Source: Gammaproteobacteria bacterium
GTDB taxonomy: Bacteria > Pseudomonadota > Gammaproteobacteria > Xanthomonadales > SZUA-36
NCBI GenBank assembly: GCA_021772915.1
Contig: JAJFLB010000018.1
Coordinates: forward strand, 62,001 to 126,000
DNA length: 64,000 bases
Reading direction: 5' to 3'
In this document: positions 42,922-64,000 of the stretch, piece by piece
How the letters are laid out: each line of letters opens with the position of its first letter
Numbering within the stretch: position 1 is the first letter of the stretch
Notes under the pieces: model-generated
Seen by the model: the letters and a program-made list of their open reading frames with translations, nothing else
The model's database searches: none
What the model was told of the DNA's origin: nothing
Made by a program: the position numbers and the translations under genes

Positions 42922-43534
42922 CAGTCAATTAGCGCCGCAACCCGGGTATTGGCTGATGTTGTGCCTGTTCTGTATCAGCCCGTCCCTGATGGCGCTGGAA
43001 TCGGACCGTCAGGAGCCGCTTGAGGTCAACGCCAACTCCACCGTCGGCACCCTGGGTGATGGGATTACCACGTTGCGCGGAAATGTAGACATTCGTCAGG
43101 GGACCTTGCACATAACGGCAAATGAGGCCGAAATCAACAAAGTTGAGGGCCGTGTGAAATCGGTCACTTTCCATGGCGAGCCGGCGTTTCTCGAGCAGCA
43201 AATTGAAGACCAGGGGATGGTCCAGGCCACGGCCCGCGTTATTGACTACCAGGTTGCCAGTGGACTGGTAACCCTGACAGAAAATGCTGTAGTCAAGCAT
43301 CCCCAATACCAGATTAGTGGTGATTTGCTGATTTATGACCTAAACATCCAGCATTTCCAGGGAAGCGGGGGTGAGAACGGAAAAGGCAGGATATACATAC
43401 AACTTGAACCAGAGGTCATCAACAAGGACAAAATCAAAGCTGGAAATGACAAGGAGGATGAGCCGGCGACCGAGACCTCCTCACCCCAGCCCGGCGACAC
43501 CCATGAGGATGGCGCAAGTGTTCTTCCTGAATAG
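42908..43534 (+). CDS. lptA: LPS periplasmic bridge protein LptA
   Basis: The 208-residue product has a signal peptide ([18 protein letters not shown]) and the OstA/LptA beta-jellyroll: [42 protein letters not shown] and [32 protein letters not shown]. The tail is acidic. It overlaps lptC by 14 bases and precedes lptB. A second, distant LptA-like gene is at 56161-56688. Confidence 0.94.
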
Positions 43535-43545
43535 GCACGGCTAAT

Positions 43546-44265
43546 ATGCTCAAGGCTACCAACTTACACAAGTCCTACCGTAGAAAAGAAGTGGTGCGTG
43601 GCGTAACCATGGAGGTACAACGAGGCCAGGTGGTGGGCTTACTCGGCCCCAATGGCGCCGGTAAAACAACCTGCTTTTACATGATCGTGGGACTGATCCC
43701 TACCGACAAGGGCAACATTACTGTTGACAACGTAGACATTACACACAAGCCGGTTAATGTCCGCTCCAGTCTTGGCTTGGGCTACTTGCCACAGGAAGCC
43801 TCGGTATTTCGCAAGCTCAGCGTGCGTAACAATATCATGGCTATTTTGGAATTACGCCGCGACCTGGATGTGAGCGGGCGCAACGAGACACTGCAGACAC
43901 TGATGGAAGAACTGGGTGTAGCCCACCTCGCCAATCAGATGGGCCAGGTGCTATCAGGGGGTGAGCGGCGCAGGGTGGAAATTGCCCGCGCACTGGCTTC
44001 CAGACCAAGTTTCATCCTTCTGGATGAACCCTTCGCAGGCGTTGATCCTATATCAGTCAAGGAAATCCAGGAAATCGTCAAGCACCTGACCGACCAGAAT
44101 ATCGGTGTGCTAATAACGGACCACAATGTTCGGGAGATGTTGGGAATATGTCATCATGCCTATATTCTTAATGAAGGTCAGTTACTGGCACAAGGAGACG
44201 CCGATGCCCTGCTGGCAAATGAAAAAGTGCGGGAAGTCTATCTCGGCGATGAATTCCGGCTCTAG
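43546..44265 (+). CDS. lptB: LPS export ATPase LptB
   Basis: The 239-residue ABC ATPase has Walker [21 protein letters not shown]-loop [15 protein letters not shown], signature [15 protein letters not shown], Walker [15 protein letters not shown] and the H-loop [10 protein letters not shown]. It powers LPS extraction by LptFG. The matching permeases LptF and LptG are 13 kb to the right. Confidence 0.97.
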
Positions 44266-49089: not shown

Positions 49090-51522
49090 ATGCAAATTCT
49101 TCTCATTTCACAGGAGCCACCATTAGCCGTTGACAAGGTTGCGACAGGCAACGCGATTCGCACAGCACAACTCGAATCTGTGTTATCTGCCGGGGGACAT
49201 ACTGTTAAACAGACCTGGTTAAATGTTAACAGCAAGTCGCAGAGCGACACCTTCTGTAGTCGCGATGAATTGCAAGCCATCATCGCCAGACAGCAACCAG
49301 ATGCCATACTGGTTTCTTACTGGGAATTACTCGAGCTACTACCATTTAACCTGCGACAGCCCGTCATTGTTGACTTTGTCGCACCCAGACCACTGGAAGA
49401 ACTTTACCAGGATCCAGCCCGGGTCGGTGCCCAGTTACAACGCTTGCAGAACAGCCTGACAAAGTGTGATTTGTTGCTGGTTGGCAACCATGAACAACGT
49501 AATCTGCTCTGGTTTACCTTGCTTAGAGCTCGGTTTGACCTGCGTAACAGTGACCCTGTGCTGGTCGTGCCCTTGGGCGCGGAACCTGTGGGCAGACCGG
49601 AGTCCAAGCCCGGGATCAGCGGCTGGACGCTGATCAGTGGCGGTGTCAGTTGGCCATGGAGAAAATCCGACGAATACTGGCAAGCAATTCACACCATGCA
49701 GGATGAATCCCAATCGCAGAGCCCGCGACTGATTCTGTTTGGCGGTGAGTACCGCTGGCATGATGCTGACCATCAAGCCCCCGGCGCCAACCTGACAAGT
49801 CGGGACTTTCAAACTGACGAGCTATCCCCTTACTCTCATTTCAGTCGCTTTTTGCTGGAGAACGGTCACATCGGTCTGGAAGTTGCCCAATTCAACATTG
49901 AGCGAAGATACAGTCAGTCATTCCGCTCCGTGGAATTTCTACGTCATGGTTTACCGCTGATTTGTAATGATTACCTGCCGATCGCCGATCTGGTTAAACA
50001 ATACGATGCCGGTTGGACCATAAAAGGGCCCACTGAGATTGCTGGTCTGCTGCACGACATCATGTCCCAGCCCGAAGATTGGAAAAAGCGCTCCAATAAC
50101 GCACTGCGACTGGTGAATGAAGCATTGCGCCCGGAGGTAGTAGCCGCTCCATTGCTTGACTGGCTGGCGACACCTGAAAAGGCTCCCCGGTTGCCCACGG
50201 AAGCGGGACAAGCCGTACCTGTGGTTCTCGGTAAACCTCCCTGGTTCGAGAGACTCAAACGCCAGGCCCGACTACTCAAACGTGCAGCGCTCGGTTGGCT
50301 TTTCCATTCACAGCCAAGCAGCAATATTCTTATCGTTACCCGCAGAGATCTGTTTCCGGACGATCATGGTGCGGCGGTTAAAATAGTTGAAACTGCACGT
50401 GGGCTGTCTCAGCACCATCGAAAGGTCGGCATTGTCAGTGATGACCGAAAGGTTTGGTGGCTGTTCGAAAATGGAGTTGTAAAGCGTTGCAATTTGCCTT
50501 TCTGGTTGCGAATTTTGAGTTTTCCACATTCACTCGCCCGCCTGCTGCATATGAGCAAGGATCTACCAGAGAGCAATAGTTTCTTATACCTGCCACTGAC
50601 GGATAACGGTTTTTTCTGGCATTGTCTGTACGTCGGCAAAAAACTGAATGCGGGCATTTTGCAGGCAGAATTTCCGGCTTACGCAAAACCATGTATTGAG
50701 GCCCGGAGCATTCTTAACGCCCCGGTGGTACTGGTTGAGCACAATGTGGAATATTCTCGGCTTAAGGCGCAAGTAGCGTCACTCACCACCACTCAATTCA
50801 AGACTTTCCAGGCGATCGAGATTGATCTTTGCAATCGCTCTGATGCAGTTATCTGTGTATCAGATAATGATCGCCAACAATTGCTCGGTGATGGTGTGAG
50901 GCCGGATCTGCTGCATACTGTTCCCCACGGATTTGATCCCGAACCTTTCGGCCTGCCCGCAAAAAAATCAATACGCCAGGACCTGGGATTACCTGCCAAT
51001 GCCGTGTTGATCGCCTTTCACGGAATATTCTCCTATCCACCTAACCGCGATGCGTTACAAGTATTTGCCGAAATATTGCTGCCACAACTTGAGACCACGG
51101 ACCACAGCTTTCACGTTATCGCCATTGGCCGTAACCCCCCCATTGAAAGCCCACATCCTAAAATCCACTTCACGGGCAGCGTCGCCGAAGTCGGGCCGTG
51201 GTTGAAAGCCTGCGACCTGGCGGTTATCCCCTTGCGTGAAGGCGGCGGCACACGCATGAAAATCATAGATTGTTTTGCCGCCGGCCTGCCGGTTGTCAGC
51301 ACCTCAAAAGGTATCGAGGGGATCCCGGTTGTCAACGGTAAAGAAGCTTTTATAAGTGACGACTGGAACGACTTTACGAGTGAGATCATTGCACTTGCCG
51401 AGTCATCCAAGCGACGTGACCGTATGTCAACCGCGGCGCTTGAGTTTGTCTCGGGCATGGACTGGAAAAGCATTGCCAAACGCTATCTGGATATTTTTGT
51501 TCGGCTCGGAACACATCGGTAG
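49090..51522 (+). CDS. Double-module glycosyltransferase (two GT-B units)
   Basis: The 810-residue protein consists of two GT-B-like halves. The N-terminal half (about 1-385) runs from ILLISQEPPLAVDKVATGNAIRTAQLE to FLRHGLPLICNDYLPIADLVKQYDAGW, with the donor-site pattern partly degenerate. The second half (about 415-810) starts NILIVTRRDLFPDDHGAAVKIVETARGLSQHHRKVGIV and ends with the family-4 donor motif CDLAVIPLREGGGTRMKIIDCFAAGLPVVSTSKGIEGI. Two transfers by one protein are therefore possible, although the first half may be regulatory. The gene is 24 bases after mgtE and starts the envelope-lipid region; the sugar and acceptor are unknown. Confidence 0.82.
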   Translation: MQILLISQEPPLAVDKVATGNAIRTAQLESVLSAGGHTVKQTWLNVNSKSQSDTFCSRDELQAIIARQQPDAILVSYWELLELLPFNLRQPVIVDFVAPRPLEELYQDPARVGAQLQRLQNSLTKCDLLLVGNHEQRNLLWFTLLRARFDLRNSDPVLVVPLGAEPVGRPESKPGISGWTLISGGVSWPWRKSDEYWQAIHTMQDESQSQSPRLILFGGEYRWHDADHQAPGANLTSRDFQTDELSPYSHFSRFLLENGHIGLEVAQFNIERRYSQSFRSVEFLRHGLPLICNDYLPIADLVKQYDAGWTIKGPTEIAGLLHDIMSQPEDWKKRSNNALRLVNEALRPEVVAAPLLDWLATPEKAPRLPTEAGQAVPVVLGKPPWFERLKRQARLLKRAALGWLFHSQPSSNILIVTRRDLFPDDHGAAVKIVETARGLSQHHRKVGIVSDDRKVWWLFENGVVKRCNLPFWLRILSFPHSLARLLHMSKDLPESNSFLYLPLTDNGFFWHCLYVGKKLNAGILQAEFPAYAKPCIEARSILNAPVVLVEHNVEYSRLKAQVASLTTTQFKTFQAIEIDLCNRSDAVICVSDNDRQQLLGDGVRPDLLHTVPHGFDPEPFGLPAKKSIRQDLGLPANAVLIAFHGIFSYPPNRDALQVFAEILLPQLETTDHSFHVIAIGRNPPIESPHPKIHFTGSVAEVGPWLKACDLAVIPLREGGGTRMKIIDCFAAGLPVVSTSKGIEGIPVVNGKEAFISDDWNDFTSEIIALAESSKRRDRMSTAALEFVSGMDWKSIAKRYLDIFVRLGTHR

Positions 51523-51577
51523 TGCGGTGTAACATATAAATGTTACCTATCAGAGTCGCACAAGTGGAGTTCACACC

Positions 51578-52723
51578 ATGATTATTGCTACTGATACCAG
51601 GCCAGAAATCAGGGAGGTCTCCTCGAAACAGGAGCTGAATACGTTTATCCGCGTTCCGTGGCAAATTTACGAAAATGACCCTAACTGGGTGCCACCACTG
51701 ATGGTTGAGCGCAGGGAGGCACTGTCACCCAAAAACCCCTATTTTCTCCATGCCCGTTGGAAGGCATGGGTCGCGTTTAGAGATGGAAAGCCCATTGGAC
51801 GTATTTCCGCTCAAATCGACGCACTACACCAACAACGTCATGCCAGCAAGACCGGGTTTTTCGGATTGATAGAAGCACCCGATGACGATACGGTTTTCAA
51901 TGCCTTGTTTGCCACCGCAGAGCAGTGGCTTCGAGACCAGGGCATGCAGCATTGCATGGGGCCCTTCAACCTCGGCATAAACCAGGAGGTAGGTGTTCTG
52001 GTTGAGGGGTTTGAAACATCCCCCTATGTAATGATGGGACACGCACCCCCGTACTATGGCACCGCGATTGAACGCTGTGGCTACGGCGTCGTGCGGGATT
52101 TGGTCGCCTATCATCTTGACTCCACCACACTCACCATCCCCAGGGTTATGCAAGCGTTGATAAAGAGAAGTGGCGACCGCATCAAAGTCAGACACCTGCG
52201 ACGCAAGGAAAAAGAAGCCGAACTGGAACTCATGAGGGATATCTTCAACGATGCCTGGCAAAACAACTGGGGTTTCGTGCCGTTCACGCGTGAGGAATTC
52301 AACCAGGTCGGCAAGGAATTGTTGATGTTATTGCCGGTTGACTTCATTCACATCGCCGAACTTGATGGTGAAGCCGTAGCCTTTAATGTACTGATCCCCA
52401 ATATCAATGAAGCACTCGCTGACCTGGATGGCCGCTTACTGCCTTTTGGCTGGGTCAAATTGCTTTGGCGTTTGAAAGTAAGGTTCCCCAAGTCGGCACG
52501 GGTTGCCCTGATGGGTGTCAGACAGAAGTATCAGAACACCCGCTTCGGGCCAGCCCTGGCTTACATGGTGATCAAGGGTGCAATGGATGCCGGCGCAGCC
52601 AAGGGACTCAGAGGCATTGAAATGTCCTGGATACTGGAAGAAAATCGGGGTGTCAGGAATATCATTGAAAGTGTCAGTGGTGAAGTGTCAAAGCGTTATC
52701 GTCTGTATGAAAAAGACCTTTAA
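51578..52723 (+). CDS. GNAT-like N-acyltransferase, candidate bacterial ceramide synthase
   Basis: The 381-residue product contains VPWQIYENDPNWVPPLMVERREALSPKNPYF, WVAFRDGKPIGRISAQID, GFFGLIEAPDDD and MGPFNLGINQEVGVLVEGFETSPYVMMGHAPPYYG, then a second GNAT-like half (AELDGEAVAFNVLIPN). This is a two-GNAT-fold family often annotated only as N-acetyltransferase. The Caulobacter ceramide synthase (bCerS) is described as a GNAT-type acyl-CoA N-acyltransferase, and this gene lies in a region with a serine-palmitoyltransferase-like gene. The substrate assignment is inference from context; the fold call is firmer. Confidence 0.6.
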   Translation: MIIATDTRPEIREVSSKQELNTFIRVPWQIYENDPNWVPPLMVERREALSPKNPYFLHARWKAWVAFRDGKPIGRISAQIDALHQQRHASKTGFFGLIEAPDDDTVFNALFATAEQWLRDQGMQHCMGPFNLGINQEVGVLVEGFETSPYVMMGHAPPYYGTAIERCGYGVVRDLVAYHLDSTTLTIPRVMQALIKRSGDRIKVRHLRRKEKEAELELMRDIFNDAWQNNWGFVPFTREEFNQVGKELLMLLPVDFIHIAELDGEAVAFNVLIPNINEALADLDGRLLPFGWVKLLWRLKVRFPKSARVALMGVRQKYQNTRFGPALAYMVIKGAMDAGAAKGLRGIEMSWILEENRGVRNIIESVSGEVSKRYRLYEKDL

Positions 52724-52780
52724 CCCATGTAGGGCATCATTGTATGGGAGCATGACACAGCTCAGGTGCGAATTAGCAAC

Positions 52781-53602
52781 ATGAACAAAGAGGTTGGAAA
52801 ATTCTGTTCAGTCATACTCGCTGGAGAAAGACCGGTTGCAAGTGCACTCGCCCACGCCTTTAATGTTCCAGCAAGTGTCCTGGTTCCGGTGGCCGGCAAA
52901 CCAACACTACTACGTGTGATAGAGGCTATCAGGGACAGCCAGTTTACGGGCGGTGGGGTCATTTGCGGTCCCGCACCGGAGATTGTGGAAAAAACCCGGG
53001 TTTTACAAGAACTCTTACAGCAACCAGACTTTGAGTGGGTGAAGCCAGCCAAGGGGCCCGCGGCCAGCGCGCTAATGGTGTTGGAAAAACTGAGAGACTA
53101 CCCTGTCTTGTTAGCTACCGGCGACCATGCGCTCTTAACTGCAGAGATCGTGGATGAATTCTGTAATCGTGCACTTTTAAGTTCGCGTACGACAGGTTGT
53201 GATTGTGTTCTGGGTCTGGTGCCTTATGAGTTGGTTAAGTCTGTCTGGCCAGGGTCAAAACGCACGGTACTGAAGTTTTCCGATGGAGAGTTTTGCGGTA
53301 GCAATCTGTTTGCCATCCTCAACCAAAATGGCCTTAGGGCGCTTTCTTTCTGGCAACAGGCGGAAGCCGACCGCAAGCATCCCTGGCGTATTGCCTGGCG
53401 CTTTAGCCCCGTTACGCTGTTGAGTTACCTGCTCAGGAGCTTGACCGCGGAAGGTGCGATGGATGCATTTTCAACCGCTACCGGCTGCCAAATTAAATTT
53501 GTACAGCTGGACTTTGCCAGGGCCGCCGTTGACGTAGACACGGTTGAAGATCAGCAGTTGGCCGATGCGGTTCTCTCCGCCCAAACCACTGATTCAGTCT
53601 GA
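52781..53602 (+). CDS. Nucleotidyltransferase (MobA/NTP_transf_3-like)
   Basis: About 273 residues. The N-terminal segment VGKFCSVILAGERP..SALAHAFNVPASVLVPVAGKPTLLRVIEAI is a variant sugar/alditol-phosphate nucleotidyltransferase start (LAGxRP in place of LAGGxGxR) with PVAGKP. VLLATGDHALLT supplies the metal-binding aspartate. It likely activates a phosphorylated alcohol or sugar with CTP or UTP. It is close to the GNAT-like gene. The start may be GTG 52766 or ATG 52781; neither has a clear ribosome site. Substrate unknown. Confidence 0.68.
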   Translation: MNKEVGKFCSVILAGERPVASALAHAFNVPASVLVPVAGKPTLLRVIEAIRDSQFTGGGVICGPAPEIVEKTRVLQELLQQPDFEWVKPAKGPAASALMVLEKLRDYPVLLATGDHALLTAEIVDEFCNRALLSSRTTGCDCVLGLVPYELVKSVWPGSKRTVLKFSDGEFCGSNLFAILNQNGLRALSFWQQAEADRKHPWRIAWRFSPVTLLSYLLRSLTAEGAMDAFSTATGCQIKFVQLDFARAAVDVDTVEDQQLADAVLSAQTTDSV

Positions 53603-53657
53603 TTCTCTTTTCTTAACCACAATCACTGGCTTCTCTGGGCTAACAACAAAATCGTCG

Positions 53658-55256
53658 TTACAGTAATCGATCCAGGTGAACACCAAGCCGATGGGTTAGG
53701 GCCAACAGGGTCAGCGTGGGGTTCGCCCACCCCCCGGTCGTGAAAACGGAGCTACCAGCAATATGAAGGTTGTGGTAGCCGTGAACAGTACAGTTTGCAT
53801 CCACTACACCTGTGCGAGCCGAACTGCTCATCCGCGTAGTACCCATGTGGTGGTAGCCACCAATGGGATGATTGCCGACACTGGCGTCTACTGGCCACTC
53901 GGGTTTCCCGTCCTCCAGCCATTCACAATTTGTAACTTTACCTAATCCAAGACGGGCAAACTCCTTTTTCAAAACCGTGGCAAACTGCAACATTGTTTCC
54001 TTATCCTGTGCGCCGAGTCGCCAATCGAGATCTGCCCGCTGACATCCCAGTGCGTCCCGTTCCGCTGACAGACGCACCCGGCTGTCAGGGTTCGGCGCCT
54101 GTTCGGCACGGGCCATCACATACAGGCCCATGCGATTTGCCTTAACGCCAAAACGCAATAACGGCATGGACACGTGACGTTGCAGCCAGTCCTGTGTGCC
54201 ACGCCAGGTCTGCCACAATCGCCGACCGGAATTCGAAGGCGACAGGCCATGCTTCAGGTTCATGTAGACGCGTGCACTCATGGTTGCACCTTTGCTGGGG
54301 TCTTTTTGTAACTTGAAGGTAGCCGCGCTATTAAGAATGCCCAGACGTTTTTGCAAAGTGGGTGGTAACACCAAGGCCGGGGTCAGCGGCACACCCGAGC
54401 GCGGGTAACGTTTACGGTATAAAGCCCAGAAAAAAGCCGGGTCTCGTGTCTCGATATGCGCAATCCTGCCATGGGGGTGCTCCATGAAATAACGACCCAG
54501 CTGGTCGTACGCGTTGCCAATACCCGCTGTTTCAACGGCGTTGGAGACCAATAGGAGACGGGCATTTTCAATGGCTCCACAAGCCAGCACATAATGCCGT
54601 GCTTTGACCTGCAATTTGCGGCCCTGTAATGTCCTGGCAGCAATACTGCAAATACTTGAAGCATTGTCTGCCGCCTGTATGCCGATGGTGTTGGCATGCA
54701 GGACTATTTGCACACTTTCGGAATTGATCAGATCGTTACTGCGACGGCTGTTGAAGCGCTCAGCGAGACCGTCAAAACGCCAGAATCGAGTGCCAATTGC
54801 AGCGGGGTCAAACCCGATGGGTTCCAGGCCGAGCTTTTTCCAGATTCCGGCCTCGTAGTCAAATTCACCCAACTCCAGGGAATCATGCGCAATTCGGTAA
54901 TAATCCTTTAAGTCGTCCTTCGCTATCGGCCAACCACTATGGGGGACCCAATCACGCTTTTGAAAATCGATCTGGTCCAGGGGGACACAACGTCCACCCC
55001 AAATATTGGTAGTCCCACCAAAAAATCGCAGTCGGGCATGATCAAGATCGTAATACTCCATACCTATATTTGCGCCATCGAAAAGAGCCTGGGTTTCATC
55101 CTCAAAATCCAAACCACCGCCTTCGAGGAGACACACATCATGACCGGCATTCATCATATCCCTGGCCAGCGCAACACCCGCAGCTCCGGCCCCGACAATA
55201 CAGACCGCTGTTTCAATCAGCAGGTCCGAGCTTGCCACTTGCAGGTCAACTAGCAT
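53658..55256 (-). CDS. GMC-family FAD-dependent oxidoreductase
   Basis: The 532-residue flavoprotein opens with the Rossmann motif AVCIVGAGAAGVALARDMMNAGHDVCLLEGGG. RFFGGTTNIWGGRCVPLDQIDFQKRDWVPHSGWPI and the C-terminal NHPIGGYHHMGTTRMS...GVVDANCTVHGYHNLHIAGSSVFTTGGWANPTLTLLALTHRLG, with the catalytic HxMGT histidine, are GMC/choline-oxidase-type features. It oxidises an alcohol, and related genes are frequent in glycan clusters. It runs opposite to its neighbours and overlaps none. The natural substrate (sugar, polyol or lipid alcohol) cannot be read. Confidence 0.85.
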   Translation of the reverse strand: MLVDLQVASSDLLIETAVCIVGAGAAGVALARDMMNAGHDVCLLEGGGLDFEDETQALFDGANIGMEYYDLDHARLRFFGGTTNIWGGRCVPLDQIDFQKRDWVPHSGWPIAKDDLKDYYRIAHDSLELGEFDYEAGIWKKLGLEPIGFDPAAIGTRFWRFDGLAERFNSRRSNDLINSESVQIVLHANTIGIQAADNASSICSIAARTLQGRKLQVKARHYVLACGAIENARLLLVSNAVETAGIGNAYDQLGRYFMEHPHGRIAHIETRDPAFFWALYRKRYPRSGVPLTPALVLPPTLQKRLGILNSAATFKLQKDPSKGATMSARVYMNLKHGLSPSNSGRRLWQTWRGTQDWLQRHVSMPLLRFGVKANRMGLYVMARAEQAPNPDSRVRLSAERDALGCQRADLDWRLGAQDKETMLQFATVLKKEFARLGLGKVTNCEWLEDGKPEWPVDASVGNHPIGGYHHMGTTRMSSSARTGVVDANCTVHGYHNLHIAGSSVFTTGGWANPTLTLLALTHRLGVHLDRLL

Positions 55257-55393
55257 CTGGGTTTCCTTTCAATGTGATCAACGGGACGCAGAGTCTCTTG
55301 AGTAGTGTATCAACTCTCTACTTTGTAAATTGGAAGATCCATGTTCTAATGCACGGCTTTCGCATTGCTGAAACATGTCATAAGGCTATTTAA

Positions 55394-56122
55394 TTGAAAG
55401 CAATTATCCTAAGTGCAGGTCAGGGACGCCGACTACTGCCACTGACTTCGAACCTCGCCAAATGCTGTTTGCCCTTGCGTGGTGCTTCGATTTTAGAGTG
55501 GCAATTGCGCCAGATATCACGTTGTAACATTGATGAAACCATTGTCGTTACGGGGTTTGCCAACGAAATGGTGGAAGCAATTGTTGCCGGGGTTTCCGAC
55601 GAAACGGTTCGAACACTGCATAATCCAATGTACGCACACACAGACAATCTGGGCACCTGTTGGGAAGCACGTGCGGAAATGGATGGACCATTTGTTTTGA
55701 TGAATGGTGATACCCTATTCGAAGCCGCGATCCTGCAACACTTGCTGGCCTGTAATAAAAGCTACCCCATAACACTTGCAACTGACACCAAACGCCACTT
55801 TGATCTGGATGATATGAAGGTCATCACCGACGGTGATCGACTGTTAAAAGTCAGTAAACAGCTGGATATCAGTCTTGTCAGTGGCGAAAGCATTGGCTTA
55901 ATGATGTTCGACAAGACCGGCGCTGATGCGTTTACAACAAAACTGGAAGAAATGATGGACAAGCGGGATGCACTCAAGCTGTGGTACTTGTCAGCCATCG
56001 ACCAGCTTGCCTCCGAGGGAATTGCGGGAACTTGTCCGATTGACGGTTTGAGTTGGTGCGAAGTGGATGATGCGGCCGACTTTGCGGCGGCATCCGAGGT
56101 GGTCAGGCAATGGCCAAGATAA
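55394..56122 (+). CDS. Choline-phosphate/polyol-phosphate-type nucleotidyltransferase
   Basis: The 242-residue enzyme has KAIILSAGQGRRLLPLTSNLAKCCLPLRGASILEWQLRQI, HNPMYAHTDNLGTCWEARAEM, FVLMNGDTLFE and a late WCEVDDAADFAAA metal aspartate. LicC-like CTP:phosphocholine and inositol-phosphate cytidylyltransferases share TDN(L/I).S/T and WxEVDD patterns. It would make a CDP-alcohol, feeding a CDP-alcohol phosphotransferase such as the one at 58983. The start codon is TTG 55394. The 137 bases upstream are shared with the divergent GMC gene. Confidence 0.78.
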   Translation: MKAIILSAGQGRRLLPLTSNLAKCCLPLRGASILEWQLRQISRCNIDETIVVTGFANEMVEAIVAGVSDETVRTLHNPMYAHTDNLGTCWEARAEMDGPFVLMNGDTLFEAAILQHLLACNKSYPITLATDTKRHFDLDDMKVITDGDRLLKVSKQLDISLVSGESIGLMMFDKTGADAFTTKLEEMMDKRDALKLWYLSAIDQLASEGIAGTCPIDGLSWCEVDDAADFAAASEVVRQWPR

Positions 56123-56160
56123 TAAGGCAACAAATGTGGCCGTCTGGTGAGATATGCGGG

Positions 56161-56688
56161 CTAATCCTGATCCTTGGAAGGAACTTCTATCGTTACACCA
56201 CCAGCTCCACTGGCCCGATAACGGTTCGTACTGATGTTATATTCGATCGTGTCACTATGTATTGCTTCATCACCTAGTTTCAGTACCGCGCCGCCAGACA
56301 ATTTCAACAGATTGGCAGATCGCACGTAATCTACCACCGGCGCGATGGCTTCAACCTGTTCATCCCCATCCGAATCAGTCCGGTTGATCCGAAAATGCGC
56401 TGGTACACCCTCAAGATGCACCTTATCCGGCCGGTCCGGGCGGCCATACACCGTTGCATGCCGGGAGGTAAGACGCCAGTCAGAGCTGTGCATAATGAAA
56501 CGACCGCTAAAATGAAGGATGTCGGAATCTTCATCTTCCCTGGCTTCATCAGCGCTGATACTGATGGTATCAATGGAAAGCTCATCCAACGGCGACGTTC
56601 CGCCAGGGGCGGGCAACAGCAAAAAAATGGCCGCCACACCCACTGTACCCAGACGTTTTGCTGTCATGACTCGACTACTGGCTCGCAT
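56161..56688 (-). CDS. LptA/OstA-like periplasmic protein, second copy
   Basis: The roughly 175-residue product has a signal-like N-terminus (RLGTVGVAAIFLLLPAPGGTS) and one LptA/OstA-type jellyroll: ISISADEAREDEDSDILHFSGRFIMHSSDWRLTSRHATVYG, VVDYVRSANLLKLSGGAVLKLGDEAIHSDTIEYNISTNRYRASGAGGVTIEVP. It is distinct from lptA at 42.9 kb. It lies divergent from lptF and would be the periplasmic carrier for that module. The start could be ATG 56688 or 56667; neither has a strong ribosome site. Confidence 0.72.
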   Translation of the reverse strand: MRASSRVMTAKRLGTVGVAAIFLLLPAPGGTSPLDELSIDTISISADEAREDEDSDILHFSGRFIMHSSDWRLTSRHATVYGRPDRPDKVHLEGVPAHFRINRTDSDGDEQVEAIAPVVDYVRSANLLKLSGGAVLKLGDEAIHSDTIEYNISTNRYRASGAGGVTIEVPSKDQD

Positions 56689-56819
56689 ATTGTGCCAGTG
56701 TAATGCAATATGCGGACTATTGAACCCATGATTTATTGGATTGACCCTCCATGTCACGTGCTTTACAGGGAAATACCAGTGAAATATAGATTGCGTCCAG
56801 GCTGGTCCGATTATTCGAA

Positions 56820-57893
56820 ATGATTATTGACCATTACCTAATCCGTGAGATCGCACAGTCTTTTTGGGCGGTATTGATCGCGCTGATGGTGATCTTCATC
56901 ACATTCAGCCTGAGCCGATACCTTGTTAGTGCTGATGCGGGACTGTTACAGGCTGGCGAAGTGTTGGAATTGACGGCGTTCAGAGCACTCATCTCTCTCG
57001 ATGTGCTGTTACCACTCAGTCTTTACCTGTCAATCATGGTCGGCTTGGGGCGTCTCTACAACGATTCCGAAATTTACGCCATGCGGGCTGGCGGTATCTC
57101 TGAAGCCCGTCTACTACGACCCGTAATGCGACTGACATTGATACTGGCCATTCTGGTAGCCCTGCTATCCGCCTGGGTTAGACCATGGGCATACACCAAG
57201 TCGTATGCCGTCACGGCAGAAGCAGAGGTCTCGGCCGAAACCGGACGGATCAAGGAATCCAGATTTTATACTTTTGGCAAAAACAAGCGTACCGTCTTTA
57301 TTGAACACATGGATGATAATGGTCAGGATCTGAAAGGTATTCTGGTACGCACCCGAAAAGGGCAAGACTTACAAGTCATTACTGCGTCTGAAGGTGTTTT
57401 CAGCCACCTGATCAAACCCATGCTTAACCGTCTGGAATTGAGGGACGTACGTATTTTCAAGAAAGTGCAGGACGGACCGGATTTCTCGGCCCAATTGGGC
57501 CGCTTCACCCTCTGGCTTCCGGCAGAACTACCACAGCCACCAGAGTATCAGGTCAAATCCTCTTCGATTATGGAGTTGAATCTCTCAACAGATCCAGTTG
57601 ATCATGCGGAATTTCAATGGCGTATGTCCACACCGGTTTCCTCTTTACTGCTTGCATTACTGGCCATCCCCCTCAGCCGTAGCCGTCCCCGACAGGGACG
57701 CTACGCAAAGATGCTGTTGGCAGTGGGAATTTACGCCGTTTATTTCACGCTTCTGGACATAAGTCGCAGCTGGGTGCAGCAGGGCAGTGAAAAATACATC
57801 TGGTGGGTGCCCGCACTGCTCAGTCTGGTTGTCGTGTTTCTTTATTGGCCCGTAAAGCGGAGCGTTCGGAGGCGAAACCTTGCTGACGATTGA
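56820..57893 (+). CDS. lptF: YjgP/YjgQ permease (LptF)
   Basis: The 357-residue membrane protein shows IIDHYLIREIAQSFWAVLIALMVIFITFSLSRYL (TM1), LPLSLYLSIMVGLGRLYNDSEIYAMRAGGIS (the coupling-helix region that contacts LptB), a periplasmic jellyroll at about 130-265 and C-terminal helices. It is LptF-like: it pairs with LptG and LptB to extract a lipid from the inner membrane. Normally it sits beside pepA; here it precedes lptG and lipid headgroup genes. Whether it is the only LptF copy in the genome cannot be seen. Confidence 0.87.
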   Translation: MIIDHYLIREIAQSFWAVLIALMVIFITFSLSRYLVSADAGLLQAGEVLELTAFRALISLDVLLPLSLYLSIMVGLGRLYNDSEIYAMRAGGISEARLLRPVMRLTLILAILVALLSAWVRPWAYTKSYAVTAEAEVSAETGRIKESRFYTFGKNKRTVFIEHMDDNGQDLKGILVRTRKGQDLQVITASEGVFSHLIKPMLNRLELRDVRIFKKVQDGPDFSAQLGRFTLWLPAELPQPPEYQVKSSSIMELNLSTDPVDHAEFQWRMSTPVSSLLLALLAIPLSRSRPRQGRYAKMLLAVGIYAVYFTLLDISRSWVQQGSEKYIWWVPALLSLVVVFLYWPVKRSVRRRNLADD

Positions 57894-58953
57894 TCGCTAC
57901 ATCATGCAGCAGTTCATCGCAGGCGTGTTTTTGGTACTTGTACTGCTGCTGTCATTGTTCAGTTTCCTGGCACTTGCTGACGAACTGGGGAATGTGGGTA
58001 AGGGAGGGTTTACACTTCCCGACGCGCTAATGGTCGTGATCTTGACTACACCCAAACGCGTCGTAGAGTTGCTGCCGGTAACAACTTTGCTCGGAGGTCT
58101 GATGGGTCTCGGAGCGATGGCCAACCAGCTTGAAATAATTGCCATCCGCGCCAATGGTATATCTAAGCAACGCATCGCGCTCACGGTCACAATGCTGGCG
58201 ATTTTTCTCGGGATCTTTGTGAGCCTCCTGCAGTTTTCCGTAGTACCCGCTTCTGAAAGAGAGGCGAGCCAGTTACGTGGCAAGTCAATACCTGGAACGG
58301 AAGCCGATGTCGGTAACACGCAGGCATTCTGGACACGAAATGGTCCCTGGTTCATTCGTGTCAATGAAGTACAGTTTGACCGCAGACTCAAAGACCTGGA
58401 AATATACAAAACCGATAGTATGGGCCGCCTGGAGCAACTGGTACAGGCTGATGTGGCCGACTATGCAGATGCAGAAAACTGGTTACTCAGCGGTGTGGTG
58501 CAGACCACAGTACAGAATTCTGAAGTGTCGGTCAGGCAACACGAGAGCATGCTGTGGACGGAATTGCTATCTGTTGAGCAAGCGGCCGTACTGATGTTAC
58601 CGCTTGAAGCACTGGCGCCAGATGACCTGATTAGGACTATTGCAAACCTCAGACGCAATAAGCTTGATACGCATCGATATGAGATTGTTTTGTGGCAACA
58701 GGTCAGTCTGCTCCCGGGTCTGTTGGCAATGGCGTTGCTATCACTGCCATTCCTGCTGGGTTCGGTCAGAAATGTTTCAGCCTCCCAGCGTGCAATCATC
58801 GGTGGCTTGATTGGCATCGGGTTTTATCTGGTACAACAGCTGAGTGGCCACATGGCCGGTCTCATGGGCCTGAATCCATCACTGGTGATACTGACGCCAT
58901 CCTTCATTCTGCTCGCCATCGCCATTTTTGCAATCCGGCATCACAGACTGTAG
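57880..58953 (+). CDS. lptG: YjgP/YjgQ permease (LptG)
   Basis: The 357-residue partner permease begins LTIDRYIMQQFIAGVFLVLVLLLSLFSFLALADELGNVGKGGF, has VELLPVTTLLGGLMGLGAMANQLEIIAIRANGIS as the coupling-helix segment, and ends NPSLVILTPSFILLAIAIFAI. It starts with TTG at 57880, with GGAGG 7 bases before, inside the end of lptF. The next gene begins 29 bases after its stop, so the operon continues into headgroup enzymes. Confidence 0.87.
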   Translation: MLTIDRYIMQQFIAGVFLVLVLLLSLFSFLALADELGNVGKGGFTLPDALMVVILTTPKRVVELLPVTTLLGGLMGLGAMANQLEIIAIRANGISKQRIALTVTMLAIFLGIFVSLLQFSVVPASEREASQLRGKSIPGTEADVGNTQAFWTRNGPWFIRVNEVQFDRRLKDLEIYKTDSMGRLEQLVQADVADYADAENWLLSGVVQTTVQNSEVSVRQHESMLWTELLSVEQAAVLMLPLEALAPDDLIRTIANLRRNKLDTHRYEIVLWQQVSLLPGLLAMALLSLPFLLGSVRNVSASQRAIIGGLIGIGFYLVQQLSGHMAGLMGLNPSLVILTPSFILLAIAIFAIRHHRL

Positions 58954-58982
58954 ACCATCCCAAACCCAGGCCGCAAAATAAC

Positions 58983-60203
58983 ATGACCATCTACGCCCTA
59001 GTTTCCGGAATTTCACCCGTCAGACTGTGGGGTCTGAATTCCAAACAACGTTTGCAAAGGCAATTGCGGGCAATCAGTAGCGAATCAGCCGGCAAGCTTG
59101 ACCCTATCAACTGGTTAGAGAATATTGACAAACTACCCGCAAATAGCCGGGTGCTATTGATCAACGGGCATTTCCTGTTCGAAAATCGTAGCCTCAAAGG
59201 CGTATTGGAACGACCGGATACCGTTCTGCGGCATGCGGATGGTAGCGTGGCCGCCGCATTTATAGATGCCGATCGCGTGGCCGCAGTCATGGACTATATG
59301 CAGGGGCACGCGCAACATCTCCCACCAGGCCTGAATAGCCTGCAGAGCAACGATCTGGGAGCATTTGATGAGAATCTGCGCAAGTCAACCAAACCCTTAC
59401 TTGAGCCCCTGTCCGTGCAACGAAAAGCGGCCCTTGAAAACGAATTATACGGCAATGCGTACCGTGGAATTACCGACCTCGTCACCAAGTTTTTGTGGCC
59501 GAGACCCGCCAAGAGCGTTGTACACTTGTGCGCCAACATGGGTATTTCACCCAATACGGTGACAGCCGTCGGGTTTGTGCTGGTCATAGCTGCCTGTTAC
59601 CTGTTTTTGCATGGTTATTACGGCTGGGGACTGTTGGCTGGATGGTTAATGACCTTTCTGGACACGGTCGACGGCAAGCTGGCTCGTGTCACCATCCAAT
59701 CGAGTCAATTCGGTCACCTGTTTGATCATGGCATTGACCTGTTTCACCCGCCATTTTGGTACATCTTTTGGGGCATGTCCCTACAGGCATACAAGCCCGT
59801 AATGGGACTGGATCTGGTGAGTTTGTACTGGTTGATTGCAATTGCCTACGTGACCGGCCGGGTGGTAGAGGGAATCTTCCCATTGCTTGGAAATTGTAGT
59901 GTTTTTACCTGGCGACCCTATGATGCCTGGTTCCGGTTAGTCACCGCCCGACGTAACCCGAATTTAATCCTGCTGACTCTGAGTGTCTTTATTGCAAAAC
60001 CTGACTGGGGCTTTATTGCAGTCGTATTCTGGTCTGTACTCACGTCCCTTGCTCTTGTGATCCGATTGTTCTATGCATTTGCCATAAGACTAATCCAGGG
60101 TCCGCTAACTTCGTGGCTGACTCAGGATGACGTCGCAACCGGACCCCATGCACACGCATTCAGACTCTTTGGTGCTACTCGGGGAGCCTATGCCGGAAAA
60201 TGA
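58983..60203 (+). CDS. CDP-alcohol phosphotransferase with N-terminal extension
   Basis: The 406-residue product has the full CDP-alcohol phosphotransferase motif D227-x2-DG-x2-AR-x8-G-x3-D-x3-D252 (DTVDGKLAR.....GHLFDHGID) and about six membrane helices in residues 190-380. The first about 150 residues look like a degenerate nucleotidyltransferase domain (LLINGHFLFENRSLKGVLERPDTVLRHADG..AAFIDADRV), with no glycine-rich start. It should join a CDP-linked alcohol or lipid to an alcohol, releasing CMP. It follows lptG by 29 bases and overlaps the next gene by 14. Confidence 0.82.
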   Translation: MTIYALVSGISPVRLWGLNSKQRLQRQLRAISSESAGKLDPINWLENIDKLPANSRVLLINGHFLFENRSLKGVLERPDTVLRHADGSVAAAFIDADRVAAVMDYMQGHAQHLPPGLNSLQSNDLGAFDENLRKSTKPLLEPLSVQRKAALENELYGNAYRGITDLVTKFLWPRPAKSVVHLCANMGISPNTVTAVGFVLVIAACYLFLHGYYGWGLLAGWLMTFLDTVDGKLARVTIQSSQFGHLFDHGIDLFHPPFWYIFWGMSLQAYKPVMGLDLVSLYWLIAIAYVTGRVVEGIFPLLGNCSVFTWRPYDAWFRLVTARRNPNLILLTLSVFIAKPDWGFIAVVFWSVLTSLALVIRLFYAFAIRLIQGPLTSWLTQDDVATGPHAHAFRLFGATRGAYAGK

Positions 60204-61164
60204 CAAAACACGCGGCCTCGTATTGGACAGAATGAATGCTGAGAAAGAGACGCGAACGGGCCAGCCGACCGCAGAAAACCTGACACCGTTGCTGACGCAC
60301 ATGAAGAATAAATTTGGCGACGACTTGCTGGCGATCCTAATTTATGGTTCCTGGTTGCGCGGCAAGCGCGACACAATGCTGGACTTCTATGTGCTCCTGG
60401 AGGACTACCGGTCACTTGACTCATTCTGGCAAGCCTGGATGTGCCGGTTGCTGCCACCCAATGTCTATCATGTTCATCACCAAGCCGGAGGCCCTGCCGA
60501 TGGTGGCCACGACACGCGGGCCAAGATCGCCCTGTTGACCCTGGACCGGTTTCACCGCGCCACACAACGAGATTTTCATTCCTATTTCTGGGCTCGTTTT
60601 GCACAACCCTGTGAGATCCTGTATGTGCGCGATGAAGCGACGAGAGCAACCCTGGCAGGGGCGTTCACCAATGCATCTGCAAGCTTTGTGCAGCGTGTGC
60701 TACCGGCACTGCCAAGTCAGTTTAACAGCAGGGAACTTTGGACAGAGGGTTTTTCACTTAGCTATCGCTGTGAATTGCGTACGGAAAGCAGTCTTCGTGC
60801 CACAGAACTGTACGAGTTTAATCCAGACTGGTACGACAAGATCAGCAATACCCTGGCCCTGGATGGCGCCGCTTTTTCGGCAGCCGAGAAGCAAACGCAA
60901 TTGTTCACTAACCAAAGCAGTCCAATGGCAAGAAAACTCTCCCCGCTCGGCTGGTGGCTACGACGAATACAGGGCAAATTGCTGTCGGTGCTGCGCCTGG
61001 TTAAAGCAGCATTCACATTCAACGAACCGCTCGAGTACCTGTTATGGAAAATTGAGCGCCACACCGGCGTGTATATCGAGCCTACAGCACGACAACTCAA
61101 ACACCCCTTGATATTTGCCTGGCCGTTACTATGGAAACTTTATCGCCGGGGGGCTTTTCGTTGA
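60190..61164 (+). CDS. Tam41-like nucleotidyltransferase (candidate CDP-lipid synthase)
   Basis: The 324-residue product has LLAILIYGSWLRGK..TMLDFYVLLEDY, then KIALLTLDRF......W.RFAQPCEILY and LPSQFNSRELWTEGFSLSYRCELRTES......ELYEFNPDWY. In order and spacing these recall the mitochondrial CDP-diacylglycerol synthase Tam41 (YGSG..MLDFV..V, then a strand leading to KP.KIL, then LP..F...LF..I..LSY.GD.R). It would make a CDP-activated lipid next to a CDP-alcohol phosphotransferase. The resemblance is from memory, not from a search. The ATG at 60190 overlaps the upstream gene by 14 bases. Confidence 0.5.
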   Translation: MPENDKTRGLVLDRMNAEKETRTGQPTAENLTPLLTHMKNKFGDDLLAILIYGSWLRGKRDTMLDFYVLLEDYRSLDSFWQAWMCRLLPPNVYHVHHQAGGPADGGHDTRAKIALLTLDRFHRATQRDFHSYFWARFAQPCEILYVRDEATRATLAGAFTNASASFVQRVLPALPSQFNSRELWTEGFSLSYRCELRTESSLRATELYEFNPDWYDKISNTLALDGAAFSAAEKQTQLFTNQSSPMARKLSPLGWWLRRIQGKLLSVLRLVKAAFTFNEPLEYLLWKIERHTGVYIEPTARQLKHPLIFAWPLLWKLYRRGAFR

Positions 61165-62453
61165 TGGCCGACAAACCTGTGGCTCGGCGAGTTCTAAGAA
61201 ATTTTGGTGTGGTGCTTCGGGGGCGTAGCATCGCAGCTATTTTTACCTTGACTGCAACGGCGTTAATGGCCAGAGCGTTGTCAGCGACAGACTTTGGGCT
61301 GGTGATCCTGCTGCACACCTATGTACTGGCTGTACGCGGCATTTTGAACTTCCGAACCTTCGAAGTCATCGTGAAGTTTGGTGTTCCGCTGCATACCAGT
61401 GGCGACAAGACGGGCTTGAGGCGCTTGTTGCATACCACCACCCTGATTGATGTGATGGCCAGTCTTGCAGCGACCTTGCTGGGTGTCTCGGTGGCCTCGT
61501 TCGCAGGTGGATTCCTGCATTGGGACGCAGGAATGATCTCGTTCGCGACCCTCTATAGCCTGGTCATGTTGACCACGGCCATTGGCACACCCAATGGAGT
61601 TTTGCGGCTGTATGACCGCTTTGACACATTGAGTATCTGGTACACGGTCGGACCCACCATTCGTATCACCGGAGTAACCATTGCCTGGTTGACGGACGCC
61701 GACATACGAGTATTTATTGTTGTTTGGGCCATTGCATTTGTGGTGGAAAATTGCTGGTTATTTGTGCGTGGTCACCGGGAGTTGTCGAAACACCTTGGTT
61801 GGTCATTGTGGCGTGGTCAGAACTGGCAGACAATACCCGCAACCAGTAGTGAGTTCAGGCGGTTTATTGCCATGGTTTACTGGCAGACCAATGTAGACTT
61901 GCTGCCCAAGCATTTGTCCGTCTTACTTGCGGGTGGTTTACTGGGGCCGGCAGCAGCCGGTATGTTCCGCCTGGCACGGGACTTTTCCAGTATATTGAGC
62001 AAACCAGCCATGATGTTGCGTGAGGTTCTGTTTCCAGACTTGACGCGCATGCTGCACAACAATGCAAAAGGATTTCATGAATTGGGATTCAAAGCTGTTG
62101 TGGTTGCTGGTGTTGCAGGTCTGGTGCTGGTCATGCTCTCAATCCCGGCTGCCACACCCATTCTCGGGATCATTGGTCAGGAATATACGCCGGCAGCGCC
62201 CTTGTTGACCTTGATGTTGGTTGCGGCAACGTTTGAGTTGGCGGGTTCACCTTTGCGGGCTGCTGCGTATGCTATGGGCAGGGTTGCCCAGGTGTTGCGT
62301 ATTCACGTGCTCAGTGTGTCGATCTATTTCGGCCTGTTCTATCTCCTCACCCCGGTAGTGGGGCTTAAGAGTCCGGGTGTGGCCGCGAGTATAGGGTCTC
62401 TGCTGACCTTGTTGTTGATGCTGAAGATGGTGCAATCAACCCGTAGTGAGTGA
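61164..62453 (+). CDS. Wzx-type flippase (MVF superfamily)
   Basis: The 429-residue membrane protein has 12-14 hydrophobic segments, beginning VLRNFGVVLRGRSIAAIFTLTATALMARALSATDFG, the typical start of oligosaccharide flippases (polysaccharide biosynthesis protein). It likely moves a lipid-linked glycan or glycolipid across the inner membrane. Its ATG shares a base with the upstream stop (TGATG), making it the last gene of lptF-lptG-phosphotransferase-Tam41-like-flippase. Substrate unknown. Confidence 0.82.
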   Translation: MADKPVARRVLRNFGVVLRGRSIAAIFTLTATALMARALSATDFGLVILLHTYVLAVRGILNFRTFEVIVKFGVPLHTSGDKTGLRRLLHTTTLIDVMASLAATLLGVSVASFAGGFLHWDAGMISFATLYSLVMLTTAIGTPNGVLRLYDRFDTLSIWYTVGPTIRITGVTIAWLTDADIRVFIVVWAIAFVVENCWLFVRGHRELSKHLGWSLWRGQNWQTIPATSSEFRRFIAMVYWQTNVDLLPKHLSVLLAGGLLGPAAAGMFRLARDFSSILSKPAMMLREVLFPDLTRMLHNNAKGFHELGFKAVVVAGVAGLVLVMLSIPAATPILGIIGQEYTPAAPLLTLMLVAATFELAGSPLRAAAYAMGRVAQVLRIHVLSVSIYFGLFYLLTPVVGLKSPGVAASIGSLLTLLLMLKMVQSTRSE

Positions 62454-62505
62454 CAAGTTCAATCGCAGATAAATGGACGGGCCCTCATCTCTGCGGCTTT
62501 ACAGA

Positions 62506-63681
62506 TTAACGTGGCAATTCCGAAAACACCTTGATGATGGTTTCGATTTGATCGGTTGAGTGGGCCGCGCTGAGGCTGCAACGCAGAAAACTGGCACCAC
62601 CGGGGGTCGCCGGCGGCAACATCAGGTTGACGTATACACCCGCTTTCAGCAAATGATTCCAACTGGCAAGCGCCTTGACCTTGTCCTGGATACGAACCGC
62701 CACGACCGGACTGACTTCCGGTCCCAGCTCAAACCCAATTTCCTTCAGACCGTTGTAAAGACGCCTGGCGTTTGACCACAACGAACTTCTCAATTTTGGT
62801 CTGGAACGTAATTGTCGCAGGGCCTCACGGGTTGTGGCGACCACTGACGGGCTGGGCGAAGCGGTGAATATGAATGGACGGGACACATAACGAATCAATC
62901 TCAGTTCCTCGTGCGGGGAAACGCAAAAACCCCCCATGGCGCCCAGGCTCTTACTGAAGGTGCCGACAGTAAAGTCGACCTTGTCCAGCACGCCCTGTTC
63001 CTCTGCCACTCCGCAACCACGGTCACCATATACCCCCAGAGAATGTGCTTCATCCACCAACAAACAGCAACCAAAACGCTCCTTGAGCGCCACAATTTCG
63101 AGCAACGGGGCGCAATCACCCAACACACTGTACAAGCCTTCTGTAACTATCAAACAGCGACCCGCACGGGCCTCAAGGCGAGCGAGCCGTCTTTCCAGGC
63201 TGATCACGTCGTTATGCCTGAAACGGAATACGTCTGCTCCACTCATGCGACAACCGTCGTACAAACTGGCGTGCGCATCAGAGTCCAGCAATACGACGTC
63301 ACCCACCTCTAATAACGCCGTCAGGACGCCGAGGTTGGCCGCGTAACCCGTCGAGAAAACCAGGGCCTCAGGGCATCCGAAAAAATCGGCCAGTTCCTGC
63401 TCCAGCGCCAGATGGCCCGCATAACTGCCATTTGCCATACGTGAACCCGTGGTGCCACTACCCTGGGACTCAAGCGCGGTGACGCCTGCAGCAACACAAT
63501 CGGGATCAAAGGTTAGTCCGAGGTAGTTATTGGTACCGGCGAGTATGGTCTTACGTCCCTGAACCACACCTTCAGTTGCCGAGTTGATGGCATCAAAAAC
63601 AACTGCTGTCGGATCAAGGCCACCGTTGGCCAAACCTGTGCGGAGTTCCCTTGCTACGGAAAATTTATCCAGCAGAGACAT
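62506..63681 (-). CDS. spt: Serine palmitoyltransferase-like alpha-oxoamine synthase
   Basis: The 391-residue PLP enzyme has GRKTILAGTNNYLGLTFDPDCV (SPT-like rather than KBL/BioF), GSGTTGSRMANGSYAGHLALEQELA, SDAHASLYDG with H137, VDEAHSLGVYGD (D210, H213) and the PLP lysine K244 in TFSKSLGAMGG. It condenses an acyl thioester with an amino acid, serine for SPT. Product assignment rests on motif likeness and on the acyl carrier protein gene upstream, as in Caulobacter. A paralogous AOS (BioF or KBL) is the main alternative, but no biotin or threonine genes are near. The acyl donor could be the ACP. Confidence 0.78.
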   Translation of the reverse strand: MSLLDKFSVARELRTGLANGGLDPTAVVFDAINSATEGVVQGRKTILAGTNNYLGLTFDPDCVAAGVTALESQGSGTTGSRMANGSYAGHLALEQELADFFGCPEALVFSTGYAANLGVLTALLEVGDVVLLDSDAHASLYDGCRMSGADVFRFRHNDVISLERRLARLEARAGRCLIVTEGLYSVLGDCAPLLEIVALKERFGCCLLVDEAHSLGVYGDRGCGVAEEQGVLDKVDFTVGTFSKSLGAMGGFCVSPHEELRLIRYVSRPFIFTASPSPSVVATTREALRQLRSRPKLRSSLWSNARRLYNGLKEIGFELGPEVSPVVAVRIQDKVKALASWNHLLKAGVYVNLMLPPATPGGASFLRCSLSAAHSTDQIETIIKVFSELPR

Positions 63682-63839
63682 GGACCAGACCCGTCAGGAC
63701 AGAGTGCAAAAGCCTTAGGCGTAGGGGCCGCTTCCAGATTTTCTGACTACACAATGAATTTATCATTTTGTTGTTCGCCGTGATGAAGTTTTCGGGCCAG
63801 ACCGGAATCAAGTTGGTGAGGACGGACCTGGTGCTCTAT

Positions 63840-64000
63840 CTACCCCACAAATTCCGAATGAGCAGCAATTACAACACCGGCCAGGTCAGTAATGGTATGT
63901 GTATTTGACAGACTTTCGAGGTCAATGGCCACATCGAAATGGTCTTCCACTTCCAGCATGAACTCCATCACCTGAAAAGAGTCAAGCTGCAGTTCCGTGA
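63840..64000 (-). CDS. Acyl carrier protein, C-terminal part
   Basis: Reading leftward from the window edge gives TELQLDSFQVMEFMLEVED, then HFDVAIDLESL and TITDLAGVVIAAHSEFVG, the C-terminal two-thirds of an acyl carrier protein. The phosphopantetheine serine is in LDSFQ, a variant of the DSL motif. The gene continues past the edge. It precedes the SPT-like gene on the same strand, as AcpR precedes or follows SPT in alphaproteobacterial sphingolipid clusters. The 158 bases between them hold nothing else I can support. Confidence 0.8.
   Translation of the reverse strand, partial: TELQLDSFQVMEFMLEVEDHFDVAIDLESLSNTHTITDLAGVVIAAHSEFVG

Follow-up and report, generated by a model that had tools for sequence, protein, structure and literature searches.

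The closest described relative of the gene cluster reported here is the ceramide-(di)phosphoglycerate locus CC_1168-CC_1152 of Caulobacter crescentus (PMC11324152). There, the first phosphoglycerate of the head group depends on a ceramide kinase and CpgC, the second on CpgA and CpgD (PMC11324152, PMC12275187). CpgD is a cytidine triphosphate (CTP):phosphoglycerate cytidylyltransferase (PMC12275187, PMC13228409) whose top structural match is an inositol-1-phosphate cytidylyltransferase (PMC12275187). The lipid helps Caulobacter cells to live without lipopolysaccharide (LPS; PMC12275187). A second Lpt set has been proposed for transport; by its authors' account, transport itself was not investigated in that work (PMC11324152). 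Contiguous sphingolipid loci have also been noted in the gammaproteobacteria Azotobacter vinelandii and Pseudomonas luteola (PMC11324152), and further literature bears on the subject (PMC10331486, PMC9386255, PMC11087976). The order of steps and the substrates in ceramide phosphoglycerate assembly are unsolved even in Caulobacter.

We analysed a window of 64,000 nucleotides (62001-126000 of a 405-kb contig) from a gammaproteobacterium of the Xanthomonadales; coordinates of the locus given below are window positions. A preliminary description had proposed, from the letters of the window, that its last 15 kb hold a locus for a decorated sphingolipid with its own Lpt export parts. The genes it named are present, as judged from the open reading frames and their Pfam and NCBIfam matches, and are best read as a phospho-sphingolipid locus that also carries second copies of Lpt components. 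This core idea is right but has largely been published already for Caulobacter and two gammaproteobacteria. The locus is a genuine chromosomal cluster for a charged ceramide lipid, and a conserved, lineage-specific variant of the ceramide-phosphoglycerate locus. What is new is that a CpgB-type ceramide kinase was not found in the bCerS-positive genomes of the source family, a point absent from the preliminary description; that CpgA and CpgD occur together with or without that kinase; and that CpgA and CpgC resemble IPCT-DIPPS and Tam41, respectively, in their structure models. Among the matches listed in a search of the open-licence literature, none described a kinase-less ceramide-phosphoglycerate locus. 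We consider the missing kinase and the CpgA-CpgD pairing to be the points worth following up.

The CpgB-type kinase and the CpgA-CpgD pair across genomes

The distribution of head-group genes was assessed in genomes carrying bCerS, the GNAT-like protein of CC_1154 type encoded at 51578-52723 (+), which has a weak Pfam GNAT match and shares a stretch with SPT genes in loci of several families. bCerS was found in 35 of 151 genomes (the source genome and 150 relatives), including all 10 of the genus and, from the rest of the family (at least 28 genomes), eight, and in 43 of 398 genomes drawn across the phylum. Together the two draws gave 77 bCerS-positive genomes, of which related ones are not independent. 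The 18 from the source family are 65-98% complete, several genomes being incomplete metagenome-assembled genomes (MAGs). Two or three bCerS-like copies each are seen in three family members (G001, G030 and G036).

Using a profile built from alignment A1, no CpgB-type kinase was found in any of these 18 family genomes, the source genome included, whereas 42 of the 59 bCerS-positive genomes outside the family (42 of all 77) have one. A laxer search of 14 of the 18 gave a partial match of 32.7 bits at best. The sole DAGK_cat (PF00781) match in the source genome is a general protein on another contig, C8. The other head-group genes are kept in the family: CpgC was found in 17 of the 18 genomes, CpgA in 17 and CpgD in 16.

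Across all 77 genomes, the Tam41-like CpgC is present in 59, CpgA in 27 and CpgD in 26. A genome was counted as having CpgD from 190 bits upwards; the next match scored 116.8 bits. The whole-genome CpgA search used alignment A4, which holds no CpgA-CpgC fusions; for labelling of locus stretches, the CDPOH profile also took in such fusion proteins. We see that 26 genomes have both CpgA and CpgD, one has CpgA only (G011, 65% complete), none has CpgD only and 50 have neither. The same holds outside the family (10 both, none with either alone, 49 neither) and when genera are counted (13 both, one CpgA only, none CpgD only, 30 neither). The pairing is not explained by linkage, because cpgA and cpgD lie far apart in two genomes (G249 and G158). 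By combination, 31 genomes have the kinase and CpgC only, 17 have none of the four, 16 have CpgC, CpgA and CpgD without the kinase and 10 have all four, while CpgC with CpgA, CpgC alone and the kinase alone occur in one genome each. CpgC accompanies CpgA in 27 of 27 genomes and the kinase in 41 of 42. Of the named loci, 11 cover the stretch from bCerS to the ligase; a kinase lies in it in L109 only.

Overall, CpgA and CpgD are a unit able to occur without the kinase, and CpgC is common to both branches. A natural lineage with CpgA, CpgC and CpgD but without the kinase separates these branches, and the co-occurrence over 77 genomes points to a cytidine diphosphate (CDP)-glycerate-using enzyme.

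Chance clustering of the genes was rejected, because the same order is found in five other genomes of the genus: a tblastn search of eleven genomes with the gene set showed the order kept in all five congeners read (G002, G003, G004, G006 and G007; G003 read no further than SPT). Wherever both flanks were read, the locus in congeners lies between rapZ-mgtE on one side and tsaB on the other.

Head-group enzymes

The CC_1152-type nucleotidyltransferase NTPb (55394-56122, +) was compared with the CpgD ortholog of G494, a genome that stands in for C. crescentus as a relative and not the strain itself. This ortholog has MQPVKTL at its start and EAEAV at its end, the residues encoded by the published primers (one of eight primers matches exactly), and its numbering fits both papers from which 11 residues contacting CTP or glycerate were taken (PMC13228409, PMC12275187). 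All 11 (residues 12, 16, 26, 88, 90, 93, 110, 111, 112, 170 and 201) are identical in NTPb. The active-site residues support CDP-glycerate synthesis by this protein as a predicted function, and phosphoglycerate would be the most likely head group because one nucleotidyltransferase of the locus has every CpgD residue compared.

CpgA (CC_1159 type, about 58983-60203, +, with a start chosen by alignment) is predicted to be a CDP-alcohol phosphotransferase with an N-terminal cytidylyltransferase-like domain. It matches Pfam CDP-OH_P_transf, and the CDP-alcohol motif DG-x2-AR-x8-G-x3-D-x3-D is intact. Its structure model (mean predicted local distance difference test score, pLDDT, 86.9) fits the two-domain enzyme IPCT-DIPPS (inositol-phosphate cytidylyltransferase/phosphotransferase, 4mnd) with Z 21.4 and a root-mean-square deviation (rmsd) of 4.7 over 320 residues, and AF2299 with Z 22.4. 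Residues 1-156 taken alone give a modest Z of about 9-10 to cytidylyltransferases. CpgA thus models as an IPCT-DIPPS-like membrane enzyme. IPCT-DIPPS draws its phospho-alcohol from a soluble CDP-alcohol.

For CpgC (CC_1161 type, 60127-61164, +, the true start possibly further in), there was no Pfam match at E 0.01, and a sequence search of the PDB gave nothing useful. Its model (pLDDT 83.5) matches Tam41 with CTP and Mg (7ecd) with Z 18.4 and rmsd 3.2 over 229 residues, and mitochondrial Tam41 with Z 14.7, the next fold giving Z 7.5. CpgC therefore models as a Tam41-like cytidylyltransferase, Tam41-like being the label already given in the preliminary description, and this agrees with the CDP-diacylglycerol (CDP-DAG) synthase domain noted for CC_1161 (PMC11324152). 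In alignment A3, CpgC is 31-37% identical to the seven most distant rows, and Y73-G74-S75, D86 and Y88 are invariant. A single scan of named records with this protein as query gave 33 loci, mostly from Lysobacterales/Xanthomonadales and other gammaproteobacterial MAGs, with one from Kiloniellaceae. Four of them carry CpgA-CpgC fusion proteins (L104:8375-10867, L105:8609-10867, L108:623-3115 and L111:2-1354, the last with its 5' end cut). Two of these, L104 and L105, have a CpgD-type gene directly upstream of the fusion, and labelling of their stretches gave no other ceramide gene.

The second nucleotidyltransferase, NTPa (52766-53602, +), is MobA-like and is assigned to the CC_1153 type by position. 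It matches Pfam NTP_transf_3, its family profile matches TTHA0179 (E 1.5e-34), and its gene adjoins bCerS in many loci.

Ceramide synthesis, probable export and accessory genes

The preliminary description had called the oxoamine synthase at 62506-63681 (-) serine palmitoyltransferase (SPT)-like, and had named grouping with BioF or KBL among the results that would speak against a sphingolipid locus. No such grouping was seen: the protein passes the NCBIfam SPT model (594 bits, cut-off 500) and fails those for BioF (333 bits, cut-off 426) and KBL (265 bits, cut-off 493). Its closest PDB matches are SPTs, and it has the pyridoxal-phosphate lysine motif TFSK. A 39-row tree places it among SPTs and separates it from BioF/KBL (split 97/94), with an outgroup made up solely of KBL- and BioF-like proteins from the source genome itself, which have long branches. 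An identity as BioF or KBL was thus rejected. The SPT and Lpt trees left out seven loci (six with a contig already present, and L097) as well as proteins outside the set length limits.

The gene for an AcpR-type acyl carrier protein (63840-64190, Pfam PP-binding) is cut by the window edge at 64000. The ketoreductase and acyl-ACP synthetase that the preliminary description had expected further to the right were found just past that edge when the contig was extended: an NAD-dependent reductase of epimerase type, CerR-like, at the window-equivalent positions 64333-65259, and an AasR-like fatty acyl-AMP ligase at 65275-67071 (NCBIfam PRK09192, 708 bits, cut-off 600). A fatty-acid hydroxylase follows at 67310-67966. 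The carrier protein, reductase, ligase and hydroxylase genes are all on the minus strand with SPT. All five proteobacterial ceramide genes (aasR, cerR, acpR, spt and cerS) are therefore present, with cerS about 10 kb from spt. The assignment of cerR and cerS is by family and position, and the bCerS family profile gave no convincing match in the PDB. By family and gene order, it is well supported that the locus carries a predicted ceramide synthesis pathway.

For export, the locus encodes LptF2 (56820-57893, +; NCBIfam LptF 299.7 bits, cut-off 230), LptG2 (57880-58953, +; NCBIfam LptG 297.8 bits, cut-off 240) and a predicted periplasmic LptA-like protein, LptA2 (56161-56757, -). LptA2 matches Pfam LptD_N and scores 53.7 bits with the NCBIfam LptA model, below the cut-off of 71.7, and its family profile matches LptA structures (E 1e-16). 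In a tree of 67 rows, lptF2 and lptG2 fall on the LptF and LptG sides respectively (split 100/100). Another LptF/LptG pair is encoded on the same contig, at 231-233 kb, and the genome has a single LptD match, with no second LptD; the outer-membrane port would thus be shared. No second LptB or LptC was found in the locus, and no genome-wide search was made for them. The proposal that the locus brings its own Lpt parts is thereby borne out for LptF, LptG and an LptA-like protein, but the set is partial. By inference, LptF2, LptG2 and LptA2 probably carry the sphingolipid to the cell surface. Genes of lptC-lptA-lptB type lie at 42358-44265, about 5 kb to the left of the locus and before rpoN and rapZ.

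In two genomes of different families, G120 (L056/L057) and G509 (L067), the stretches read hold no lptF2 or lptG2 and have RND (resistance-nodulation-division) tripartite pump genes (HlyD, AcrB-type, OEP) beside bCerS. Neither genome has a kinase, CpgC, CpgA or CpgD match anywhere. It is possible that this pump is another sphingolipid exporter.

Several of the remaining genes vary between genomes. A GT4-type glycosyltransferase with two modules (49090-51522, +; Pfam Glyco_trans_1_4 and Glyco_transf_4) is accessory: it occurs in four of the five congeners read, the exception being G006, and the stretches of two further genomes (G014 and G033) showed no copy of it. GT4 and GT2 modules also occur in a very long glycosyltransferase frame (L009:16090-20000 and L010:1-1120) to the right of the locus, past tsaB, yoaA and class A penicillin-binding protein genes. 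The GMC oxidoreductase gene (53658-55256, -; Pfam GMC_oxred_C) is found in all six genus loci compared; its PDB relatives, over short stretches only, are glucose and fructose dehydrogenases and pyranose oxidases. The protein at 61131-62453 (+), earlier called a flippase, is a flippase-like polytopic membrane protein by hydrophobicity (seven hydrophobic segments in a simple scan); searches of Pfam (at E 0.01) and of PDB sequences gave no match for it. A metallophosphoesterase gene lies between lptG2 and cpgA in G002, G003, G004 and G006. Among the congeners read by tblastn, the fatty-acid hydroxylase was seen in G007 alone, besides the source genome; relatives of it lie near bCerS in L070, L071, L077, L081 and L082. 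Elsewhere, aspartyl/asparaginyl beta-hydroxylase genes sit between nucleotidyltransferase genes (L101:2796-3557, L117:3531-4286 and L109:3983-4732). An insertion in the locus of G014 (L054:6168-13552) holds sulfotransferase-like, CDP-glycerol glycerophosphotransferase-like, GT2, PrpD-type and further phosphoesterase genes, and is perhaps another head-group variant.

Proposed pathway, alternatives and comparison with known systems

We propose a pathway in which the acyl ligase would load AcpR and SPT would condense the chain with serine, after which bCerS would add the second chain and CerR would reduce the ketone. CpgD would produce CDP-glycerate, and CpgA would move phosphoglycerate from it onto ceramide, so that the phosphate arrives with the head group and no kinase is involved. 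CpgC, with its Tam41 fold, would act in the same branch as CpgA and CpgD. LptF2, LptG2 and LptA2 would then export the lipid to the outer membrane with a shared LptB and LptD. The whole scheme, with CpgB lost in the source family, seems to us about evenly balanced between right and wrong; within it, direct transfer by CpgA would be the simplest mechanism for this family. More tentatively, and with the balance tilting against it, CpgA may be a split IPCT-DIPPS turned ceramide phosphotransferase, with CpgC coupled to it (fused in some relatives) and a dedicated LptFG export branch. If this reading is true, bacteria would have a way of making an anionic ceramide phospholipid without a kinase.

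Several points weigh against this scheme. To act on ceramide directly, CpgA would have to switch acceptor, because Caulobacter uses CpgA and CpgD for the second phosphoglycerate and requires the kinase and CpgC for the first. The weakest part of the scheme is CpgC, which is kept although the lipid-phosphate substrate that its fold suggests would have no dedicated kinase; a housekeeping lipid kinase could supply that substrate. All 10 genomes outside the family that have CpgA and CpgD also have the kinase. The 67-row tree did not show a single origin for sphingolipid-linked LptF2 and LptG2: the second sets of this class are separated in it from those found elsewhere in the phylum, and some of its branches are long. 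Finally, when candidate LPS-contact residues were compared between E. coli, the genome's other LptF/LptG pair and second copies, that other pair also lacked several, so that the comparison gave no substrate evidence for the Lpt parts.

The main rival is a housekeeping kinase that supplies ceramide 1-phosphate. The Caulobacter pathway would then be unchanged, with an unrelated lipid kinase such as the DAGK_cat protein phosphorylating ceramide, CpgC activating or extending it, and CpgA and CpgD adding a second phosphoglycerate to give CPG2. The retention of CpgC in the family and the company that the kinase keeps outside it both fit this account, as do the one DAGK_cat gene of the source genome and weak matches of that kind in eight of 10 genus genomes. 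However, such weak matches also occur in family members without bCerS (G010, G012 and G016), as expected for a housekeeping gene, and eight family genomes, read over their cluster stretches, showed no CpgB-type kinase there; we regard an unchanged pathway as rather unlikely. It is more doubtful still that CpgA and CpgD make a different phospho-ceramide, with a non-glycerate head, for the GMC enzyme to oxidise further or the two-module transferase to glycosylate. The sugar-active PDB relatives of the GMC protein and the frequency of both genes in the genus (six of six loci and five of six) would suit this idea, but all the compared CpgD residues are conserved and the transferase is missing from G006 and from the G014 and G033 stretches. 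A role in handling LPS or some other lipid for LptF2 and LptG2, whose link to the sphingolipid genes would then be historical only, is similarly improbable. The nearby canonical lptCAB genes and the lack of one clade in the tree speak for this, while lptF2 and lptG2 also lie beside bCerS in distant families with different surroundings, and the genome already has its other pair. The source lineage is another setting for the question of whether LptF2 and LptG2 carry sphingolipids.

To return to the kinase-free locus and its known counterparts, two genomes from outside the class (G494 and G404) have the order SPT, Tam41-like protein, kinase, CDP-alcohol phosphotransferase, phosphoesterase, lptF2, lptG2, bCerS, NTPa and NTPb, which fits the published Caulobacter order CC_1162-CC_1152 (PMC11324152). 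By family, and by order against G494, the source locus resembles that of Caulobacter in its five ceramide genes, CpgC, CpgA, CpgD, the CC_1153-type nucleotidyltransferase and lptF2/lptG2 (CC_1156/CC_1155 in Caulobacter); both also have a gene labelled as a flippase. It differs in that a CpgB kinase was not found in the source family, in that a phosphoesterase of CC_1158 type (by position) is missing from the source cluster and G007, and in its extra GMC oxidoreductase, two-module glycosyltransferase and fatty-acid hydroxylase. Compared by place, an LptA-like gene stands where the Caulobacter paper reports LptC2 (PMC11324152). Like the loci of A. vinelandii and P. luteola, as these are described in PMC11324152, it is a single contiguous gammaproteobacterial locus, but unlike them it has no kinase and has a flippase-like gene. 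At the level of single enzymes, the CpgC model shares the fold of Tam41 CDP-DAG synthase, but at 12-16% identity and with linkage to sphingolipid genes. The CpgA model fits the two-domain IPCT-DIPPS, whereas in the source locus the cytidylyltransferase and the phosphotransferase are separate proteins, with glycerate and ceramide as predicted substrates.

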